Source: Brachionus koreanus (Eukaryota; Rotifera; Eurotatoria; Ploima; Brachionidae). Taken from it: 64,000 nucleotides of DNA. The DNA lies in contig PJRA01000444.1 in NCBI GenBank assembly GCA_016987375.1, forward strand, positions 233,814 to 297,813, in the 5' to 3' direction. Positions 13,601 through 64,000 of the stretch are shown piece after piece (the stretch's first letter is position 1; every line of letters begins with the position of its first letter). The position numbers were made by a program, and so were the translations under genes. Below the pieces are notes generated by a model that saw nothing but the letters and a program-made list of their open reading frames with translations, was not told the origin of the DNA and made no database searches.

Positions 13601-16600
13601 TCCTCAAATTTCATTTTTTAAATTTGATCAAAAAATCTTAAATGCACAATTAAATTTTTAGAAATTACAATCATTTTTCAACTGTTCCAAAATTTGAAAG
13701 CTTTGAAATACTAAAAAAATTTAGAAATTTGCGATGAAATTTAATTGCACATTTAAAAATTTTTGATCAAATTTGAAAAATGAAACTTCATCTGCAAGTC
13801 GTGACATGACTTTGTTACGACTTTTATACAAGTCTGACCCGAACCAATACCACCAAGCACACAACATCCCTTTTATTAAACTGTTCTCTTTTCACTCCTG
13901 GTTGAACTGGTTACGATGGATCTAATCTTTAATTTCTTTCAAAATTTTCAATTTTTAAATTTTTTTAGAATTAAATAAACAAAAAGTTAGACATAACAAT
14001 TCAAATTTTAATTTTATTGATAATGTTGGACTATGTGGCAGACTTTTGAACAAAAATAGACTTACTCGTAAAGACCTGAGATGAATAAATAGTGAAATTT
14101 TGATTCAAATGAACCAGAATCATCAGTGTTCTGATAGACATCGACAATATTTGACTTCTGATTTTTGACATACTCCTCGAGACTTTCACGATAAATCAAC
14201 TTGTTCATGTCACATTTTTCTTGCATTAACTGATCACTTTTTGAAATTGATTTGTCAAATCTGAACTTTTTGTCCAATTTAATGATAATATTGGTTAATT
14301 GTTCACTATTGTAGCTCTTTGCCTTGGACAATAGAACACCAGCAGCATCTAAATTGTTAACTTTGAGCAATAGCAAGGCCATATTTGAATGCAGTAGACT
14401 GAGCCGGTTGCTTATTTGCAAAAATTGCATTCGAGTCTTAAATTTTCTATCCAAGTCGGACACATTGAACACCTCGAACAAGTCCTGCAGTACTTCAATG
14501 CATTTTATTATGTACTTAAGCGCAAAGTCAATGCTATTTGCTTGTAAAGACATTTTGGCCATTTGTTCTAATAGATGGCTGTACCGAAGCTTCTCGGTAT
14601 CACTTAATGGATATTTCTGAGAAACAAGAAAAAAAATTTTTTTATTAAATTTAAAAAATAATTTTTTTTTTACCTGTGTTACTATATTATTAATAAAATT
14701 AAGAACAGAAAAAGCAAAGTTGTCTTGAAAAAATTTGTCATCCAAATATTTCATTAGGTCGTTGAGAATAAGGCAACGATTAACCAGCAAAAGTGTGCAC
14801 GAGTCGGAGAACTCGGCACTAGTGTTGTCAACCAAATTATCAACTAAACTGTCAATACTAGCACTGAGCTCAATCGATTCTTTGTTAAAATAATCTTCAT
14901 GTTCAGTCTCGGTTCTACTAAAAGCGTCATTTTGGTAATTTTCATATACTTTAAGCTCAATGTGATTGTCAGTTAGCTCAAAATCGTATTGATCTATGCC
15001 TTTGGTCAAATTTTTGATAAGACTAGTGCGCGTTTCTTTTTGACTGTTTACCAAACGAATGTAATTGCACAAATCAAACCATTCGTTCGGGTATCTAAGT
15101 CTATGTGAATCGAAAATTTGCAATACTTTGTAGCTGGTCAAAAGTTTGTGAAGATTGCGTATGTCAAACGACATGTACAAATGATAGATTAATTCATGTA
15201 TGTGTTTGAGCACATTTTGGGATATTTGCTCGCTATTTGCTGCGCTTGTCGATTCTATTCGACTGCTCAAGTCGAAGTTTGATTTGGTCAAGCGACTTTC
15301 AACAATGTCCGATATTAATAGTGAATGAATTTCTTTTTGTTTTTGACTAATGTTTTGTTTAAACAGTGCTGGTGTTTCCTCATTTTTTTGGTCTACATTT
15401 ACACTAAATCCATCTGTAAATAAATAATTTTTAAATGCTCAAATTCTTTTTGGTCAAATTATAAAAGTATTTTTGTTAACTAATATTAATGAATAAATTC
15501 ATTTTTTTAATATTTTTTTATAATCTAAAAGAGCATTAGCTCAGAAAATTTGGTTAAATCTATTAAGAAAAGAATGGGGAAAATTTTTAATACGAAATAC
15601 GAATTTTCACTTATAAAAGCTTGTATATACCAATTATTCCACACAAAACTATTCATTCAGCCAAAAAAAACAAATGTAAGGAAAAAAATGTTGGTTTATC
15701 AAAAACCGTACCGTAGGATATCCTTATCTAAAATTTTTAATGAAAGATTCCGATCTAGCACTCAGATAATTGCATTGATCCCAGCCGGATGTCTTTATTT
15801 TTATGAAACATCTCTAAATAAATTGATTAGATGATCTCTTGTTTTTGGGGTTTAAACTTATAACCCTTTGCACAAGCATTGCCAACACACTAGCATAGCA
15901 AAATTAAGAGGTAAGTGTTTCTAGTGTAAAAAAATTTAGGTATTAAGTTTGTCATGTTTGTCTACCGTTCTAGTTCATTCAGTTCATTATCAAGAGAGTA
16001 TTCAGTTAGATTTTTTTAATGAAACAAATTTATTTAGAATATTCAGACTTGATTTTTTTTTCAAATTATAGCAATTGAAAAAAATCATTTACAGTATATT
16101 TAATTTTACATTGGTAAAATATATTTTCAATTAATTTTCTATTTTTCTAAATTTTTTCTCACTATGAATTATTGATTAAAAAAAATTATTTTAAATTAAA
16201 TATTAAAGTTAAATTGTGAATAAACAATAAACATACCCAAAAGCAAAGCTTGAACAGCTTCTTTGAAATAAACATGAGAAAATTGAATAGTGCCACCAAG
16301 ACCTTCTTGCAAAAAGCTTCCAAATTGCATTCTAAAAGCACTCCAGTGCATTTCAGTTATACTCATATGGTCCACAAAGCCAAGACGCTTTAACAGTCTC
16401 AAAATGGTCTCTTTATTAATTCCGTTTAGAGACAAAGCTATAAAACAAAGAGTAGTGCCGACCCATCCGGGATTATCAAGTGACAAAGGTGCACTCTCGT
16501 CTACTGACCAATTATTCTTTCTCAAATAGCGTTTTAATATTTTCTCTATTATTTCCCTAATAGTGGCCACATCCTCAAAATATGAGTTCATAATATTTAC

Positions 16601-19600
16601 CGAATTGTTAAGCAATGACGATGCTGATGATCTAGATGTAACTATTTCGTGTCCTTCGACTAAACTCCCATCCAAACTACCGGCTACACTGTTCAGTCGA
16701 CTCATGTGAACCGGATGGTTTTTGAATATCTCTTTGTCAAACGAGAACAATTCTTGAGCTATTAGTGTTAAAAAAAGCGGATTATTTACATGTTCTGATG
16801 TTTTTAATTCGTGAAAAATATTCAAATATTTTTTGTACAAAATGTTTGAGCTTGTTGCATTTGAAACACCGAGATATTTTCTGAAAAAATTTTCAAAGTC
16901 ACTACTACTGTCTAATAGGATTAAATGCTGTAGAATACAGTCACTTCGCTTAGATAATTCACGATAAAATTCGCTAGAATCGCGCATTGTAAATACAAAT
17001 TTGCAGTCTGGTTCATCGATTTTTTGCGGCAACCATTGACCAATTGGCAAGCTCATTTTCGCATTCAGTTCACTAAGTCCATCTATGAATATGTTTGCTG
17101 GACCTAATTGTAATGCTGCATTAAATTGTTCAATAATTGATTTTTGATCAAACAACTCCGAGTCCAGACTTGACAGTGAATCTTTTTTTAAATATTTGGC
17201 CCTCAGTTTAGATGTAATATTCACTAGAGTGTTTATAAGATGATCTTCAGGCTCTAGAAAATAGAATAAACAAAACGGGCCAGTCTGATCGGCTAGGCCC
17301 GTATTAATCACATATTTTTGATACAAACTAGCCATGAAAGTTGTTTTTCCATGACCACGCGGGCCTGATACAACATAAATTTGTTTTTGCTTTCCTACTG
17401 GTGCCGGAGTGAACGAACTTGACAAATTTAAATGTCTTAGTTTAAGTATTTCTAAAAAGTCTTCTTTTTCGTCTTCTAAATCGGCATCAAAACTGTACAT
17501 GTTAAAATCTTCGACAGTCTCGTGTTTGAATTCTTGAGATGCTTCTAATTTAAAACTGACACTGGTCAATTGTCTAGGCTTTAGAAACATGTCCACCATT
17601 TTGGCCGTATTAACAAAATTATCAGTAAACACGGCATTATTTAGTTTATTGTACACTAGTGTTTCGGTTTTTAATAAACTTCTTGTTTTTAAAAAGTCTG
17701 TGCTTATGCTTAAAAAAACTAATATTTTTTTTTTAATTTTTTTTTGGTTAAAGTAAATATTCACTTTATCTATAAGAAGATCTTTTAAAATTTTTATTTA
17801 ATTTTTATTTTTAAATAGAGTTGGAAAAATTTTGAAATTTTGTCATCATTAATAAAATTTCTCTTGATTAAGTTTTTCAGACTGACCAAATGACCTTTAC
17901 ACATCACAATGGACAATGTATAGTCATCTTAATTTGATTAACAAAGCTAACAGACATTACCCATTTGATCCTAATGATTATACATACTGAACTGTAGATC
18001 ATCACTTCCTAGTACTTAACTTGGGTTAAGGACTACTTTTTAGTACCATTTGTGGAAAACATATTTTGGGTATGGTAGCTAAAAGTTTAAAGAAGTTGAA
18101 CATAAACTCATTGAGAATGCTTTACACAGCATCTCATTTAGAATTGGCTTAGTTATGAAAATGGCTTAAATTTTTCTTGTAATTGAAAGTATAATTAGAG
18201 AAAATATAATAAATGTATTATTTGGTAAGAAGTGAAAAATTGTATGCAGCGATATCATTTTTTAACTAATTGAGTAGCTAATGTTAGGAATAGTTAACCT
18301 CATCACATCATTAATTCTATATCAATAAACAATTTAGAAAATAATCTGGACAAATGGCTCAGGAAACAGTCAAATTTACTGTCATAGCTTCAAAGAAGCT
18401 TTACCCAAAAGGGACCCAGTATGTTTCGTTTCGTTAATAATTAATAAATATTCAAACCTTAAGTCTATTTAATTTAAAACCATCATCAATCTAGTTAGCC
18501 GTTAGACTCACTATTCGAGTCTACATAGCATAGGATACAAAAGAAAGAAAAATTGTGGCGTGCTTTACTAATTTAAAAATAAATCGGAAAAATGAAATTA
18601 TCTGTGGAGAAACTTGTATATAGAATAAATTCATAGGATTTTTTTTTAAATTGGAATAATGCAAAAAATTAAAGTCTTAATGTAAATATAATTCAACGAA
18701 ATGTCTAGAATACCAAAAATTCATATAGGACCAAAGAAGTTTTAAACTTCATATAAAATCACATAAAAAATTTAAGATATTTTTTGATTAAGATTATAAA
18801 ATAACTTTAGACATTACTCAACATTAGTTTACAATATTTCTTTTGAATAAATGAACAATTAATAGAACAACCAAGAAGATGATCGCTTAATGATCAAAAA
18901 ACCAATACTGGCAATCATACTTGTAACGGTATGAAAATAACCGTTACAACCATTTAAATTATCCTTAATATTATTTACAATTTATTTAGATTATATCTTA
19001 ATGACCAATTTAATTCACAATTAATTATACTGTGTATAAATAAGAATCTCAATTCGTATTCTTATTTATACACAGTAATTAGAGGGCTTTATCAACTTTG
19101 TATTTTTTCCTATTTTACAACAATCTTTAAAATAAACGTTTATATAAACAATCTCGATCTTTGTCTTTACATATCTCCTCTGAAGTTAATCTAAGGAATC
19201 AGGCCAATTTCGTAGACTAGCATACTGGTATTTTTTTCCATATTTATTGTAACTGGAACTTGGTTTAGTTTAAAGTCAATCAAACTATGAACAACTGCTC
19301 ACTTTTCAATAAAGATAGAGAGCAAGTTATTGGTGGAGGAGTTGCTATTTATGTACGAAATGATATTGAGATTTTTGAGAGTAAAAAATTTGGGCTTTCA
19401 GACAGAGGTATAGAATAAATTTAGTGCAGTATACGCATAGGTACATGCCTGTATATTCATCCCACAAGATTAATGTTAAAGTGAACAAAGCTATTAATTT
19501 AAACTTAGTGATATAGATATTGGGAAATTCAAACACAAACAAAATAGAAAATCCTATTTTTTGATAAATTTAAATTTACCTAAAAAAAAACTGCCAAAAA

Positions 19601-55368: not shown

Positions 55369-56805
55369 TTATTCTATGCACATTCGCAAAATTAATTCAA
55401 AAAATTCGAACAAACTAAGTAGACTGATTCCCATAAATAAGCCAAGAGTTCCTCCAATGCTGCCGATTAGACCATCGATACTAATATTTTCACTCTCTGT
55501 TATTTCAGTTTGTTTCAAATGTGCATAGAAAACATTCAAAGCTAATAGACTCTCACGCAATTCATTCAAACTAACATTAGATCTATTTTTGAACAAACTT
55601 TTAACTTTGTCTGTTTTCATTAAACTGTTTGCATACGAAACAGACGGGTACTTGCTCTCTGACTTGACTATTCTATAACTGATCGATTCACACTCAAGCG
55701 GACACAATTTGTTTATTTTACTTTTATAATTTGATGCTGTAATCAAACGAAAATTCTCTAATGCACACAACTGCTCTGCTAATGTATTACACGGATTGTT
55801 GTTTTCTAAAATTAAATTTGAGATTGCATCATCACAACTACATTTTTTGTAGATCTCAGATTGAATATAAGCATAGAAACAGTCCATTTGACGGTATTCT
55901 AAATTTGAGCTTAAAACTTTTCTGTAATATTCTGAATCAAATGAATCAATTGAGTTCAAATTGTTCACACACTCACTGTATGGATACGGCTTTTGAATGT
56001 TTGATATGCGTTCAAGAACAAGATTTGTGTAGAAACCCGATGCAATGTCGTTTCCCTCTCCAATCAACGGTAACATTGGATTATCATTGATGTAGATATG
56101 GGCGCCAGTTGACAGACTTAGGCTTGTTGAATTTTCTGGTACACCGACAAATATTTCTAGCATTAGGCCATTGTATTTTCCTGTTTGATAGGATTTTTTC
56201 AAATTTGACTTTCCCGAATTAAATCGGTAGCAATTTCCGTACTGGGAGTCAAAAAACCAAGACCAGTCGTTTGTATGGCATGGCTGGGCATTGAACAAAC
56301 AGCTAATGATCATTTTATTCAACGGAACTGCTAGTTGTTTCTTAACTTGGTCGGGCAAAGATTTTAGACTGATAGATCCGAATAGTCGAATGAAGTTGTA
56401 ATTGAGAAACAAGAAAGAATCATTGTATAAGCTTGATGCATTCAATAAAACCGTTTGTTCAAAGTCTGTTAGATTGTTGGCTCTAAGGATATTTTGGATG
56501 AATTGAATGCCTGTGTCAGTCACAAACGGATTGACATTACAAACTGTTATGGTTGGAAACGGAAGGCCATCTTTTTCGACAGCTCTTATTTTAGTTACAA
56601 CATCATAGTTAAGAAAATCTGTAACATGCAATGAGATAACATAGATGCATGCTCCAATTGAAGCTAAAGACAGAATTGTCCACATAATTCGGACAAAAAG
56701 AATGCTGGTTCGAAAAATGTGCTGAAGTCCGTGAACTGTGATGCTTTGAGACCATTCTTTGAAAGCACTAGAAGCTAATGAAGTATTTTTGTTCTTTGGG
56801 TCCAT
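55369..56805 (-). CDS. DEG/ENaC-family sodium channel subunit
   Basis: An intronless ORF. I choose ATG 56805 (478 aa, MDPKNK...) because the longer frame opens with TTG. Family marks in order: HG motif in TVHGLQHIF (H25-G26, needed for gating), TM1 about 37-60, post-TM1 motif FPTITVCN (83-90), a cysteine-rich extracellular domain, then pre-TM2/TM2 with SIGGTLGLFMGISLLSLFE, where G459-I460-S461 is the G-x-S selectivity filter. These channels are trimeric, amiloride-type sodium channels of the cell surface gated by peptides, protons or mechanical force. Length is near the usual 500-600. The gating stimulus cannot be told. An AG at 56852-56853 might be a splice acceptor of an upstream exon. Confidence 0.92.
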   Translation of the reverse strand: MDPKNKNTSLASSAFKEWSQSITVHGLQHIFRTSILFVRIMWTILSLASIGACIYVISLHVTDFLNYDVVTKIRAVEKDGLPFPTITVCNVNPFVTDTGIQFIQNILRANNLTDFEQTVLLNASSLYNDSFLFLNYNFIRLFGSISLKSLPDQVKKQLAVPLNKMIISCLFNAQPCHTNDWSWFFDSQYGNCYRFNSGKSNLKKSYQTGKYNGLMLEIFVGVPENSTSLSLSTGAHIYINDNPMLPLIGEGNDIASGFYTNLVLERISNIQKPYPYSECVNNLNSIDSFDSEYYRKVLSSNLEYRQMDCFYAYIQSEIYKKCSCDDAISNLILENNNPCNTLAEQLCALENFRLITASNYKSKINKLCPLECESISYRIVKSESKYPSVSYANSLMKTDKVKSLFKNRSNVSLNELRESLLALNVFYAHLKQTEITESENISIDGLIGSIGGTLGLFMGISLLSLFEFFELILRMCIE

Positions 56806-56844
56806 CAAAGCTTCACACAACAACAACAAAAATTGTTCAAACAA

Positions 56845-57719
56845 TTTTCTATATTAATATGATTGTAAAAAAATATATAATAATTTTGTTTAGAAGCCAT
56901 AAAAAGTTACGCCTGTGACAATGTTAAAAATTCTTATAGCTTTTCTCTCATAAGTTAAAAGCAAGTTCTGTAAATGCAGCATGGTGCAACATTCAAAGTT
57001 GCACTAGTTTGTTGCACTTATAGAACTAATTATAAGCCTTCCGAAAAAAAGTTATTAAATATTTTAGCATTTTTTTTGTTCTAATTGTTTAATTTGTATC
57101 AAATTTCACAAAACCCAAAATAGCTAATTAATATTTAAAAATAAAATAATTCTTTTGTCAATATGCAAAATGTGTTCATTGCATTAGTGACATCATGGAT
57201 GTTTACAAGCAAAAATTAAAAAGAAAAATTTGACATGTGCTAAATGAATTCGAAACAAGGCATTACTAATTACTTTTGAATAAATACCTATCAAAGCTTC
57301 ATGTCAAATATGCACTGAAAAGCTCTAATTAATTAGGAAATTTTTTTTCCTTAAATCTTGATGTAAATATTAATCGAACAAATTTTTCCATAATTTTACC
57401 ATTTATTCTGATGATAAATAAAATTTGTTAATTTCTTAATACCAAAGTTTGTTAAAAAATTTGAAAATTGTTAAAAACCATGCACATTTTTTTTATGTCT
57501 TAAAATCAGTATGTCTAGTATTATCAATAATGTCTTGTGAAATGTGAAACAGTTTTTCATAGAAAAGGGAATTCGTTTATTTTTGTTTGACCCATTCATT
57601 GAATAATTAAAAATTTAATTATCATATTTAATTTTTTTTAAATGTATGACACAAACTAATATACCAAGTAAACAGTTTTTTTAATCTATCTATTTGTGAA
57701 GCTGAATCTAAAGTCAGCA
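56845..57719. other. Spacer upstream of sodium-channel gene
   Basis: AT-rich sequence with no recognisable gene or RNA. Confidence 0.5.
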
Positions 57720-58060: not shown

Positions 58061-58172
58061 AGGTTCTAAATAAATTTTTTTGTTAAAAAACCTGATTTAT
58101 AAAAATTTTTCTCAATGAATGAATGAACATTTTTAAACGTTTTATTAATTAAACATTATTGATTTGATGGGA

Positions 58173-61100
58173 TTAAGATTTTCTCTTCTTTTTTTTCTTT
58201 ATTTCTAATTTTTTCAATTGTCCTTTGATTTCCATTGTTTGCTCAATACACTTTTCTAGTCTATTGTTCATGTTTTTCAATTCGTAAAACAAATTGTTAA
58301 TACTATCATCGGTTCGTGTAATTAGTTTTACACTTTTGGCATTTAGCTTCTTTTTTTTCTTCTTATCCGAATATTTTTTGTACTTTCTTAAAAAATTTTT
58401 GATAACACTACATCTACTTGCCAAATTAATTGCTGTTCTGATCACATCATTGACACAGTCAGTTAATTTTTCAACCAATTCTTCTAATTTAATAAAAATA
58501 AATCCAAATTTCAGCTTTTTAAATTCTTCTATCCTTAATATGTAGTCTATTTTACTCACAGCATCATCTCTTTCGGCAGTTCTAAACAATGTTTGGACTT
58601 CATCAATTGATATGCCTGTAAAAATGTTTAAAAGCAAAATAGACATAAAGTAAATAAAAAATCCATAGATAAAAAAGTTGATAAAAGAGAATCTATTGAT
58701 ATCTTGGATACCCATGTCATCTGTTTCCAATGAGCCCATCATCATAATAATTGTCTTAAAAAATGAGAGTGAAAATGAGGAATTGAAATTTGTAATAAAA
58801 TCATTTTTATTGGAGCTGAAATTATTTGAAAGGTTTTGAAACGACAAACAAAAGGATACCAAAAATATTAATACAATGATGACAAGACCGTTTGCTTTGT
58901 TAAGTATTTTACCAATTACTCGTATATATTTACCAAAATAGAAAAATTTGTCCATTTTAAAAATTAAAACAATGTAAGATAACAAAATTGATACAGAAAA
59001 AATGATTATATTTTCTTGATTTAATTCCAAAATAATTGTTAAAAATGCAAAAATGTATGTTAAAATTTCGATAAAGTTTTTCTTTGAGAAAATATATTCA
59101 AAAAAATTTTCCAAGTCATCTTTTGAATAAATAGAATAGACGAATTGAATGATCTCAAAAGAAAAATTGATTAATAAGGAAAAAAAAGACAATATTTTTG
59201 AATAGCTATTCCATGATCCTCTTAAATTTCTATATTCTTTTATATAGATTGAATAAAATATTAGAAATAAGATATAAATAAAAATGGATGCTAGATAAAT
59301 TTTGATTGAAAGTTTTTTCCAGCATTTTTCAAGCATTTCTTTGAATACTTCATCACCAATTATTTCATCGTTATCATAGTGTCGTATTTTCTGAAAAAAG
59401 TTTATAAGATGATCATTTTTCTTGACATAAAGCTTTATTTGTTCTTTCTCTTTTCTTAAAACATTTGAGTCTTTTTTGATATCATCAATTGTATTTGATA
59501 TTCTTGTTTCATTCAAGTCCTTTTTCATTTGGTCATTGACTCTAAGCAAAAAGTTTCTAAATTAATAAAATAGTAAAATTACTAGCAGGAAATATAACTA
59601 GAAAACTAGTCTTTTATTTAAAAATCAATTGTATTGAAATCTTAGAAAAAAAACTAATATTATTATTATCAAAACATATAAGTTGTCTATTCATTTCCAA
59701 CCAGTAGGAAAATAAGAATAATTTCTTAATACATACTTTATTTCTCTATAGTAATCACTTTTCGTATTGCTATCTGGTGTGATATCAAAAAAAAAATTTA
59801 TTGAATTTGTTTCTCTGATTAGAATCAAAATCAATTTGAACCAATTATTTCTAAAAATTACTGATAAATTATTTCGAAAATTCTCTTTTAAATTTTCTAT
59901 TTTTTCACTTTCGAAATACTCTCCATTTTTCTTGGCAAAAATAAATGTTTTAAAAAAACATATAAGCATTTCTTCATTATTAAGCTCAAAACATTTTCGA
60001 TAGTCTAAATCGAAGTCGACTCTTGAAAAAAAATCGTTTGCCAAGTAATTGTTCATTGCTCCCATATCTGTTTTAATAAAATTTTTGAATAGTATTGGGT
60101 CTTTTCTCTTTAAAAGATTAAAAAAAGATTTGGGAGACAAAACTCTAAATTCAAAATTTTCACTACAATTGATAAATTTCTTTTTAAAAATATTTTTTAC
60201 CAAATATTTTAAGGTAATTATATAATTGGAAGGAATGTAATCAAACATAATAAACATGTCAAGAATACTGTACTCGAAATTGTGATAACATTTAATAATT
60301 TGCTCTAACTCTTCGTGATCATAAATGTTTAAGCAGTTTCTTGCCAAAACATAGAAAATTAATCTAAGATCCAATCTCAAATTTCTAGTAAGAATTATTT
60401 TTTTGGAATATTTACTAATTTCTTCACAAATTGAATTATCTGAGCAACTTTCAATTGACTTTAAAATAAAATTTATTTTATCATGCACTTTGTTGTCAGT
60501 TGTTTTTTTTTGTTCATCGAGAAAAAATCTTCTCAAAAAAATTTTTGCTGCATTTTCTTGGATATTAGCTTTTGATAAATCAAAATATTGAAATAAAGTC
60601 GACATGTCCAATAAATCTTCTAAGTCTAAATTATACTCAATTTTAACTTTGAACGAAAAATCTGGGGGTAAATTCATCGCGAATGTGTAGAGTGGAATAT
60701 TATTATTTGATACATTCAAACATTCAATTTGTGAAAAAATTAAACAACTTTGAAATGTGCGAACTATGTTATTACTTAAATTAATTTTGAGTCGAGGATT
60801 TGATCCACAAAGATTTTCTTTAATTACTTTGATTCTATTCTTGGAAAGATTTAATTCATTTAAATTTGAAAGATCTTTAAATGAGTTCTCAGATAGGTTT
60901 TCGATTAAATTATTTTCTAAATTCAATGATACAAGCCCGATCATTGATTTAAAATGCCTTTCACTAATTGACTTTATTTTGTTGTTAGATAAATCGAGAA
61001 AATAAAGTTTGGTCAAATTCTTAAATAAATTGCTCGGTAGATCTTCAATCAAATTATCATTCATGCATAGTTTTAAAATCTCGTTTGTTGAACTAAAAAG

Positions 61101-63218
61101 ATTTTCATTGATAGTTTGTATCATGTTATTAGAGATATCGAGATAGTATAATTTTGACACATTTTTGAACAAAAATTGTGGCAAAGTTTGAACTAAATTG
61201 CTACTAAAATACAAATAACCAAGTTCATTTGAATTTTTAAAAATGTTTTCATCAATTTTCTTTAGCTTATTGTTCGAAAAATATAGTGAATTTAATTTTT
61301 GTAAATTTTGAAAAACATTCGGGTTAAGATCCTCGATTAAATTGTTACTCAAATATAAGGTGACTAGTTCATTCGTTGATTCAAAAGCATTGTTTTCAAT
61401 TGATTTTATTGTGTTAAAAGAAACATCAAGAAAATTAAGATTTTTTAAATTTTGAAAAAATGATCTGGGTAGAATTTGGATTAAATTGTTGCTTAAATTT
61501 AATGTCATCAGTTCATTTTTGTTTTTAAAAAAATTTCCTTCAATAGTCTTAATTTTGTTATTTGAAAGATCAAGATAGCTTAAATTCTGCAGATTATCAA
61601 ACGAATCATCATGAAGGTTTTCTATTAGATTAGCAGTTAGACTCAATGATCTCAAGTTTAACAAATGTCTGAAAATGTTCCCATCGATTCTCTTCAGCTT
61701 ATTGTTAGAAAGATGAAGCGATGCTAGTTTTGGTAAATTTTTAAAAATATTTGCTGGTAGATTTTCAATTAAATTCTTATCAAGATATAATGATTCCAAT
61801 TGATTCAATGAGCTAAAAACATTTTCATTGATCGCTTTTAGATTATTTTCATAGAGATAGAGAGAAATTAGCTTTTGCAAATTTTGAAATACAAAACTAG
61901 GTAGATATTCGATTAAATTGTTGTTTAAGCTTAATACTTGTAATTCATTAATTGACTTGAAAGCATTTTCATTTATTGTTTTTAGCTTATTAGAAGACAA
62001 ATCAAGATATTTTAATTTTGATAAATTACAAAATACATCAGCTGGTAGATTTTCGATTAAATTGTTATTCAAGCATAATGTAACAAGTTCACCCATTGAT
62101 TCGAAATTTTTCTCATTTACACTCTGTATTTTATTATCATAAAGATAAAGAGACTCTAGTTTTTTTAAATTTTGAAATAAACTTGCAGGAAGATGTTCAA
62201 TTAAATTATTATTCAAATATAATGTTTCAAGTTCATTCATTGAATTAAATACAGTTTCATTTATTGATTTAAGCTTATTATACGATAATTCAAGATATTT
62301 TAAATTGTTAAAGTTTTGATAAACATTTTTTGCTAGATTTTCGATCAAATTGTTATTTAAAAATAATGTCTCTATTAGTTTAGTTGACTTGAAAGCATTT
62401 TCATTGATTACCTTTAGCTTATTATCAGATAAGTCAAGATACTTTAATTTAGAAAAATTTCGAAAAATATCTGCTCCTAGATTTTCGATTAAATTGCCTC
62501 TTAAATAAAGCGTCTCTAGTTCAATAACTTTTACTAAACCCTTATTGCAGATTGCTTCTATCTTGTTAGAAGATAGATCTAAAATTTCTAATTTTTGAAA
62601 ATCTTGAAAAACATTCACTTGTAGAATTTCGATTAAATTATTATTCAAATTCAATGTACCTAGTTCATTCAATGATTTAAACACATCTGCATCAATTTTT
62701 TTTAGCTTATTACTAGATAAATCAAGATATTCTAATTTTGATAATTTGCAAAATACATCAGCTGGTAGATTTTCGATTAAATTGCTATTCAAAACTAATT
62801 TTTTTAACTTAGTTGTTGACTTAAAAGCATTTTCTTCTATTGCCGTCAGTTTGTTGTCATAAAGATAAAGGCAATTCAATTTTTCCAAATTTTGAAATAA
62901 ATTGCTTGGTATGCTTTCGATTAAATTGCTAGTCAAATAAAGTGAGTTCAATTTGTTCAATGGTACGAAAACCTTTTCATCAAACATTTTTATTCTATTG
63001 TTTGAAAGATCAAGAGAGTTTAGTTCTGGAAAATTTTCAAAAAATGAACTCGGTACATTGCAAATAAGATTATTGCTTAAAATAAGGTCTTCTGTGTTGG
63101 CGTTCATTGATTTTGGATCAATTTTATTCAGATCTTCTAGCTGTTTATACGACAAATCACATTTTATCATTTGTTTGCTATTACCCAAATCCGGATCAAT
63201 TTGGTTTACCTCTTGCAT
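58173..63218 (-). CDS. LRR-TRP channel fusion: about 33 leucine-rich repeats plus a TRPA-like pore domain
   Basis: Two exons, 63218-59737 and 59556-58173, joined by a GTATGT donor and a TTTAG acceptor (intron 180 nt, phase matched): 4866 nt, 1621 aa. There is no signal peptide. Residues about 40-840 are LRRs of 24 aa in strict A/B alternation (NNLIENLP type, then NNKLKxI type). A helical linker follows (about 845-1240), then S1 at about 1245, S2-S5, a pore loop FFKTIIMMMGSLETDD (about 1424-1441) and S6 ending LLLNIFTGISIDEVQ (about 1470-1484). A coiled-coil, Lys-rich tail closes it. The pore and post-S6 resemble TRPA channels, which carry ankyrin repeats at this place. Without the splice, the channel ORF has no ATG near its start and the LRR ORF ends 15 codons later. 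Two separate genes remain possible. Confidence 0.75.
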
Positions 63219-64000
63219 CTTTTTTTCTGTTAGTTTATAATTTTATAATAATTAATTTCTATCATTGATTCTAAAATTTTTTGCTTATATAAATATCCAA
63301 TTTTGTAGCCTTTTATTGCTGAAACCAAAATTGCATCATAGAATATTTCTTTCAACGCAAATAAATACTTGATTTTTTTGTTGTTGCCTAGTAGCTATAA
63401 AAAATCACTATTTTTAAAGCATGTTTCACTTTGCTTCATTTTATTCACTAAGCGAATTTTAATTTTCTGCTTATTTGAATGTGTCGATCTCACCTTAAGA
63501 CTAAAACCATTTTTGATGCTTGTTTGCATACACTTTATTTACAAATCAAGAATCTAAATTCTATTATACTTTGAAAATTTTTTCTAATCAGCAACAGATC
63601 AAGTTTTTTTTATTTATTTAAAAATATAGTTTGGGTTTAGACCCGGGCAGTTTGGAATGGATCTTAGTCCTTCCTTTCAGCCGCCTGAAAAAAAAGAAAT
63701 TGCTTTTAGTAAATTCTGAAATAATAGTAAATTCGCTAAATAATAATTAAAGTAAAAATAATAAGGATAACAGCAACAGTAGACTGCATGTCGAGCAAAT
63801 CTTTAAGTAACTTTGTTGGTCTTTTTATCTGAAATCACATACAAAATTTAATAGCAAGAGAAAAAAGATTATAAATTATGTAAATATAAATTAATTATTT
63901 TTGATTTAGATATCGAAAAAATTATAGGAGGCATTGTTTTTCTTTAGATATTGTAAAAATTTCGAATAATGTTTGGAATCTACGTGGATTATGGTCCGAG
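63219..64000. other. 5' flank of the LRR-TRP gene with a LINE-like tail
   Basis: AT-rich. At 63605-63690 a GC-richer block ('gggtttagacccgggcagtt' onward) follows a (TTTA)n run, much like the 3' tail of LINE copy B at 32240-32300. It is probably a LINE 3' end on the minus strand. A 62-codon frame at 63369-63557 is unrecognised. Confidence 0.4.

Follow-up and report, generated by a model that had tools for sequence, protein, structure and literature searches.

A leucine-rich repeat array joined to a TRPA-related channel pore in a rotifer gene family

Two neighbouring open reading frames on the minus strand of a Brachionus koreanus contig raise the question of whether a leucine-rich repeat (LRR) protein and a TRP-type channel are here one gene and, if so, what channel it encodes and what the repeats might do for it. 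The window, the whole 64,000-nucleotide stretch analysed, contains an LRR ORF of 1183 open aa at 59691-63242, whose first ATG lies at 63218, and a channel ORF at 58173-59561 (462 aa open). An earlier note had these join in frame through a GTATGT donor and a TTTAG acceptor 180 nt apart, and both ORFs and both splice sites were found as it described. Splicing there would yield one open frame of 1621 aa. Exon 1 (59737..63218, minus strand, as are all features below; residues 1-1160) comprises the start codon, the LRR array and a linker, as indicated by the open frame, the in-frame join and dN/dS against a second copy, C26. The predicted 180-nt intron (59557..59736) is in phase 2, and C26, C3a, C5, C18 and C3b each have a candidate donor that matches it in position and phase. 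Exon 2 (58173..59556), recognised with a channel-region profile against the PDB, encodes a pre-S1 segment, a six-helix TRP pore, a post-S6 helix, a likely coiled-coil and lysine-rich tail, and the stop. Exon 2 contains another in-frame acceptor, GCTTAG, 15 nt from its start, with identical letters in the window and C26 copies, which leaves the exact acceptor uncertain by five residues.

The earlier note also held that the downstream ORF has no start codon of its own near its beginning, which is wrong: its codon 12 is an ATG, at position 59528, and becomes residue 1171 once the exons are fused. This ATG, together with one at codon 11 of the C3a channel exon, would suit two adjacent genes, one for an LRR protein and the other for a short TRP-like channel, as would locus C50, a fragment-like LRR-linker exon for which no channel ORF of at least 100 aa was found in the 2.85 kb read downstream. 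We nevertheless consider two genes extremely improbable and reject that reading. LRRs stand upstream of the channel in all seven channel loci of the LRR lineage in this genome, and six of the seven share the candidate intron in both position and phase. The channel exon start is readable in these same six (the window, C26, C3a, C5, C18 and C3b), and in the last three no ATG precedes S1.

Database homologues have the same layout. The union of two protein searches, one of which scored the 7995 candidates sharing most words, gave 16 homologues. In 14 of them a single predicted chain contains both LRRs and channel sequence, and in 12 it extends from the LRRs through S6. P0007 and P0008 are assigned to the LRR lineage by homology, their own chains being without LRRs. 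Members include P0001, an unnamed protein of Brachionus calyciflorus (the only organism named in three protein result lists), and metagenome proteins, several annotated "Leucine-rich repeat (LRR) protein" and none named as a channel in the result lists. With such names, and with a pore below the Pfam cut-off (see below), routine annotation can miss genes of this kind. Alignment A1 found no relative in prokaryotic and viral collections, where 144 viral-contig and 178 genome-contig pattern matches were obtained and none was confirmed.

Both exons are under similar constraint, which also argues against two genes. The window chain and C26 are 94% identical, differing at 94 of 1621 residues without any break of frame, with dN/dS of 0.29 overall and 0.31, 0.21 and 0.31 in the LRR, linker and channel parts. 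The same order in seven loci, the candidate intron in six, the fused homologues and this dN/dS indicate that the fusion is not due to chance, and the single gene of the earlier note is supported. Since the C26 match (96%) is confined to 58172-63604 plus a 39-bp piece at 58130-58167, with no match further downstream, C26 is likelier a dispersed duplicate, about 5.4 kb long, than the other haplotype, the upstream flank having been followed only a short way. A recent duplicate of this sort, the broken LRR frames of C18 and C5, the fragment-like C50 and an Ion_trans score under the cut-off could also point to a decaying duplicate with no working channel. This is very unlikely, given that all 1621 codons are intact in the window and C26 copies at a dN/dS of 0.29 and that C3a, at 50% identity, keeps its LRR and channel frames open. 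We looked for ligand-face diversification between the window and C26 copies and saw none.

The LRR solenoid (60798..63101, residues 40-807; Pfam LRR_8, E 1.3e-138), delimited by a list of units and their columns, contains 31 consecutive units, each exactly 24 residues long, that span residues 64-807 and follow an imperfect unit at 40-63. One or two degenerate units follow up to about residue 850 (60669..60797, residues 808-850; a single unit-scan match, at residue 829), and the earlier estimate of about 33 repeats is therefore sound. The units alternate in type, forming a 48-aa, 144-bp super-repeat, and a 144-bp period is present in the DNA over 61756-62842. Across the family the count runs from about 8 to about 37. 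Repeat number varies so widely among relatives that a "spring of similar length" to the ankyrin array, as first suggested, is not a family trait.

On which side of the membrane would this arm lie? Extracellular LRR proteins, LGR4 and LRRTM2 among them, account for many of the top PDB hits to the LRR model, and the DNA is compatible with an upstream 5' exon that would supply a signal peptide and turn the LRRs outward, as in polycystin-1. That arrangement is highly implausible: none of 20 chains examined reaches the threshold of a 19-residue Kyte-Doolittle mean of 1.6 in its first 90 residues, and the six-helix TRP topology places the N-terminus on the inner side. The window chain peaks there at 0.74, in agreement with the earlier statement that it has no signal peptide; the highest value among chains with LRRs, 1.42, belongs to the open frame of C9, whose start codon is not fixed.

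The pore (S1 to S6, 58596..59306 by alignment A1) is a TRP pore by profile and fold comparison. A profile of seven channel regions matched TRP channels best in the PDB, with TRPA1 first (E 3.3e-14, 55.8 bits), then TRPV2 (25.6 bits) and a TRPM-like entry (23.1 bits), so the subfamily check that the earlier note called for favours TRPA. In a Foldseek search with the P0007 model TRPA1 entries took ranks 1-10, the model matching TRP structures in a fold comparison that by itself does not separate TRPA from TRPV. The profile-profile comparisons, here and for the linker below, drew on 13 LRR-lineage and 10 TRPA proteins out of the 16 and 22 obtained from the database. They related the LRR lineage to ankyrin TRPA pores at 100% (E 1.2e-42; E 4.6e-31 after removal of the first 30 residues, which hold the pre-S1 motif), and to PKD2-like channels of the same genome at 16% (E 0.0016). 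A non-TRP membrane family is rejected on these PDB profile, Foldseek and profile-profile results. Three channel searches of the genome returned three TRPA loci and no match near its TRPM or TRPC domain matches, both of which exist; in loci C10 and C4 the ankyrin repeats were recognised by visual inspection of the ORFs. Ion_trans scored 17.9 bits in the window exon, below the Pfam cut-off of 25, and was matched at E<=0.01 in 10 of 19 family members.

Within this kinship the lineage stands apart. The pore search gave 48 regions; in the tree built after P0015, P0016 and part of C9 had been dropped as short, one branch (100/100) splits 20 LRR-lineage rows from 25 TRPA rows. The tree is without a named outgroup, as human TRPA1 and other named animal TRPAs were absent from the 22 database hits labelled TRPA, 12 of which carry an ankyrin Pfam entry; four PKD/TRPML-type ORFs fed to the pore search were not recovered. 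In the selectivity filter region (MMMGSLETDD, 58716..58745) a serine occupies the position where ankyrin TRPAs mostly have an acid. No acid follows the filter glycine in any of the 21 LRR-lineage rows that are readable there (23 in all, two with gaps; P0014 poorly aligned), whereas 19 of 25 TRPA rows have one; its absence may alter calcium selectivity. The pore is thus TRPA-like in that TRPA is nearest by profile, as the earlier note had it, but it groups beside the ankyrin TRPAs and is missing their usual filter acid. As the ankyrin array is missing too, we file the gene as a TRPA-sister lineage and not as a TRPA.

The pre-S1 segment (59310..59414) has a TRPA-like signature, LxHETTxxLLxxKW, in the family consensus (A3 and A4), diverged in the window gene, and a post-S6 helix (58521..58595) lies at the TRP-domain position in the alignment of the family with ankyrin TRPA. 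The end of the chain (58185..58307) is a likely coiled-coil with a lysine-rich tail, judged from its sequence and from models of P0005 and P0007, which show long helices at the C-terminus, in part with pLDDT below 50. The AlphaFold2 model of homologue P0005 has LRR strands mostly 24 residues apart, a helical linker, a six-helix pore and these long helices.

The helical linker (59739..60668, residues 851-1160) is conserved in the family, as indicated by conserved columns in alignment A2 and by a linker search of the genome, which matched C26, C18, C3b, C5 and C50; C3a and C9 had no match at E<=0.01. Within it, an ankyrin-like hairpin (59928..60014, residues 1069-1097) is a candidate remnant of the last ankyrin repeat, from a weak profile match of the family linker to that repeat (score 30, shuffled maximum 20, probability 9-10%). 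Residues 1113-1145 (59784..59882) are candidate TRPA-type linker helices by profile alignment to the ankyrin TRPA linker, and the model of a homologue, in its region immediately ahead of the membrane, can be superposed on human TRPA1 593-1019. This weak evidence suggests that the family retains the TRPA linker and a final ankyrin-like hairpin. No ankyrin family appears in Pfam scans of the window gene or of any of the 19 A4 members, four of which were scanned as channel exons only. The proposed exchange of ankyrins for LRRs therefore holds in that LRRs replace the array, but the swap may be incomplete.

With gene structure, fusion, selection, family and pore relationship established from sequence, we consider it probable that this is one spliced gene for a TRPA-sister TRP cation channel under allosteric control of a cytosolic LRR sensor. 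Each chain would present about 33 typical 24-residue LRRs, then the helical linker, S1-S6 and the coiled-coil tail, and the channel is most likely a tetramer. The LRR arms, presumably in the cytosol, would bind an intracellular protein or ligand, or alternatively a partner whose state follows cell stress. A shift in arm position may then be relayed by the linker, which would correspond in position to TRPA1's last ankyrin repeat and linker, to the pre-S1 and post-S6 helices, opening the pore.

An arm of the same kind might instead act mechanically, as a tether or spring from cytoskeleton to pore, for which the ankyrin helix of TRPN/NOMPC is the precedent. A long, regular solenoid at the same place in the chain is compatible with this, but LRR number ranges from about 8 to 37 among members, no cytoskeletal anchor was identified, and no test run pointed to force, one of the two stimuli that the earlier note had suggested; we regard a mechanical channel as possible but doubtful. 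A more speculative and rather unlikely extension of the sensor reading is a new TRP subfamily in which fast-evolving, birth-and-death cytosolic LRR arrays form an intracellular recognition module wired to a cation pore. If true, this would unite LRR receptor and calcium or cation effector in one chain, a logic comparable to that of plant resistosome channels.

For the question of how a cytosolic arm gates the pore in TRPA and TRPN, these relatives, in which a TRPA-side pore follows an unrelated solenoid of four- to five-fold varying length, offer a natural set of chimaeras that could reveal which part of the arm gating needs. The family would add an unrecognised group of sensors to the animal TRP channels. 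Among the matches listed in a full-text search of open-licence papers, no description of an LRR-bearing TRP channel was found in titles and abstract openings, and, as the earlier note had supposed, no named TRP family with an LRR-plus-pore layout was found in that literature. One paper mentions LRR family expansion for a bdelloid rotifer (PMC3846280), and another lists TRP families without using the word leucine (PMC11526382).

Among known systems, TRPA1, a sensor of pain and heat, and the other ankyrin TRPAs are closest: they share the nearest pore by profile, the pre-S1 signature (in the family consensus), the post-S6 helix, the predicted C-terminal helices and a repeat solenoid ahead of S1. 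They differ in that the solenoid here consists of LRRs, with no ankyrin family in Pfam scans, and the LRR lineage has no filter acid (0/21) and its own tree branch. In TRPN/NOMPC, too, a TRP pore is preceded by a very long solenoid, there of 29 ankyrin repeats, whereas here the repeats are LRRs of variable number and ankyrin families are absent. Polycystin-1 is also a single chain with both LRRs and a six-helix TRP-like part, but its LRRs are extracellular and it has a signal peptide, 11 helices, and PLAT and GAIN domains, whereas the Pfam scan of the window gene lacks PLAT, REJ and GAIN and its N-terminus is not hydrophobic. LRRC8/VRAC has four helices, C-terminal LRRs and a connexin-like or pannexin-like anion pore. 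The pores are unrelated, the LRRs here precede the pore, and no pannexin-like family appears in the Pfam scan. What LRRC8 shares with the channel proposed here, and for which PMC8440666 provides the precedent, is allosteric regulation of a channel by cytosolic LRRs.

The LRR ORF (59691-63242, minus strand) and the channel ORF (58173-59561, minus strand) are connected in the window, as the earlier note had proposed, by a predicted intron with GTATGT and TTTAG bounds 180 nt apart; it lies in phase 2, and the join leaves 1621 codons open. A second acceptor, identified in the near-identical copy on contig C26 and present in identical letters in the window, lies 15 nt inside exon 2 and preserves the frame. 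The same note was mistaken in stating that exon 2 lacks an ATG near its start, as there is one at codon 12, which does not decide whether this is one gene.

The two ORFs are best read as one gene. The channel exon matches its own genome 11 times at 10 loci, and LRRs lie upstream of the channel at seven of these: the window, C26 (94% identity), two loci on C3 (C3a and C3b), C5 and C18 (50–53%), and C9 (39%). The remaining three, on C10 and twice on C4 (27–31%), contain ankyrin repeats when read by eye. A candidate phase 2 donor past the linker also occurs in C26, C3a, C3b, C18, and C5, where it is not top-ranked among the candidates. At C9 a single open frame, with a run of N inside it, spans both LRRs and channel. 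Two database searches with linker-channel queries together gave 16 proteins, including one from Brachionus calyciflorus. In 14 of them a single predicted chain contains both LRRs and channel sequence, and in 12 it extends to S6; P0007 and P0008 are chains without LRRs, and P0015 and P0016 end early.

The gene adjoins a same-strand DEG/ENaC (ASC) sodium channel (55372-56853, minus strand; Pfam E 4.3e-66). Farther along the minus strand, ORFs at 26140-52662 (five scanned) contain FN3, laminin-EGF, and laminin N-terminal domains, looking like a single large usherin-like matrix gene, and an ORF at 16199-17797 has a below-threshold NACHT / NPHP3 P-loop match.

Pfam Ion_trans is weak alone on the window gene (17.9 bits; cut-off 25). 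A profile of seven channel regions, from five own-genome loci plus P0007 and P0008, best matches TRPA1 (7ykr; E 3.3e-14, 55.8 bits), followed by TRPV2 (25.6 bits) and a TRPM-like protein (23.1 bits). In profile-profile comparison, 13 LRR-lineage pores match 10 ankyrin TRPA pores (100%, E 1.2e-42; E 4.6e-31 with the first 30 residues removed); against six own-genome PKD2-like channels the LRR lineage gives 16% (E 0.0016) and ankyrin TRPA 60% (E 8e-5). The genome also encodes TRPM-type (23 matches) and TRPC-type (four matches) domains, and three channel queries gave no match near either. An unrooted tree of 45 of the 48 pore regions, with long branches flagged, has one branch (100/100) parting 20 LRR-lineage rows from 25 TRPA rows; within it, the TRPA-like pores P0035, P0036, and P0037, in which an asparagine pair replaces the filter glycine and acid, form their own long branch. 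Based on these profiles and the tree, the LRR channels form a lineage beside ankyrin TRPA, and the unrooted tree does not imply nesting inside it; we file the gene as a TRP channel with an LRR arm, of a TRPA-sister lineage.

Among other own-genome Ion_trans matches, six ORFs with channel sequence, each between 316 and 557 aa long (L051–L056, from C50, C24, C35, C3, C22, and C10) and part of a larger set, appear PKD2-like, and L057 (C1) appears TRPML-like.

The predicted count of about 33 LRRs agrees with the window gene, in which residues 64-807 comprise 31 consecutive units of exactly 24 residues, preceded by one imperfect and followed by one or two degenerate repeats. Two unit types alternate (R L K L K L... 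at unit column 12), forming a 48-residue (144-bp) super-repeat at 60798-63101 (minus strand), and Tandem Repeats Finder reports a 144-bp period across 61756-62842. The array therefore seems to have grown through duplication of repeat pairs. Family members have 8 to 37 LRRs, each a lower bound from one regular expression, leaving out the P0011 fragment and the two LRR-less chains.

The C26 copy differs from the window gene at 94 of 1621 residues with zero frame breaks (dS 0.086, dN 0.025, ratio 0.29; LRR 0.31, linker 0.21, channel 0.31). With intron identity at 89%, this intact frame and low ratio suggest that both exons are maintained by selection. Pore identity to the B. calyciflorus LRR channel (P0001), which need not be an ortholog, is 43%. 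By contrast, the ankyrin locus C10 shares 80% identity with the B. calyciflorus ankyrin TRPA across 85% of the query region. LRR frames are broken at C18 (L045; TGA and frame changes) and C5 (L044; spread over three frames), representing either decaying copies or repeat assembly errors. On C50, an LRR and linker exon of the family (L066 474-2150) has no channel ORF of at least 100 aa within the 2.85 kb read downstream, and is either a fragment or a gene with a more distant second exon. Low cross-species identity, the recent duplicate, the broken loci, and the C50 fragment together suggest fast family turnover.

In human TRPA1, the acid after the filter glycine matters for calcium. An acid in this position is mostly present in TRPA (19 of 25 rows) but absent from all 21 readable LRR-lineage rows (two more are gapped; P0014 aligns poorly and P0012 has alanine for glycine), so ion selectivity may be shifted relative to TRPA. 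Because N-termini of the family chains are not hydrophobic, the LRR arm should be cytosolic, as previously claimed.

In the favored reading, the channel would assemble as a tetramer, each chain with a cytosolic LRR arm; binding of a protein or ligand by these arms would be relayed to the pore by the linker, pre-S1, and post-S6 helices. We give sensing by binding about an even chance; that the arm is instead a mechanical tether we consider rather unlikely. Full-text searches of mainly open-licence literature listed no paper on an LRR-bearing TRP channel, judged by title or abstract opening, in line with the claim that no named TRP family has this layout. LRRC8, in which cytosolic LRRs control the channel allosterically (PMC8440666), is a precedent for the control proposed here.
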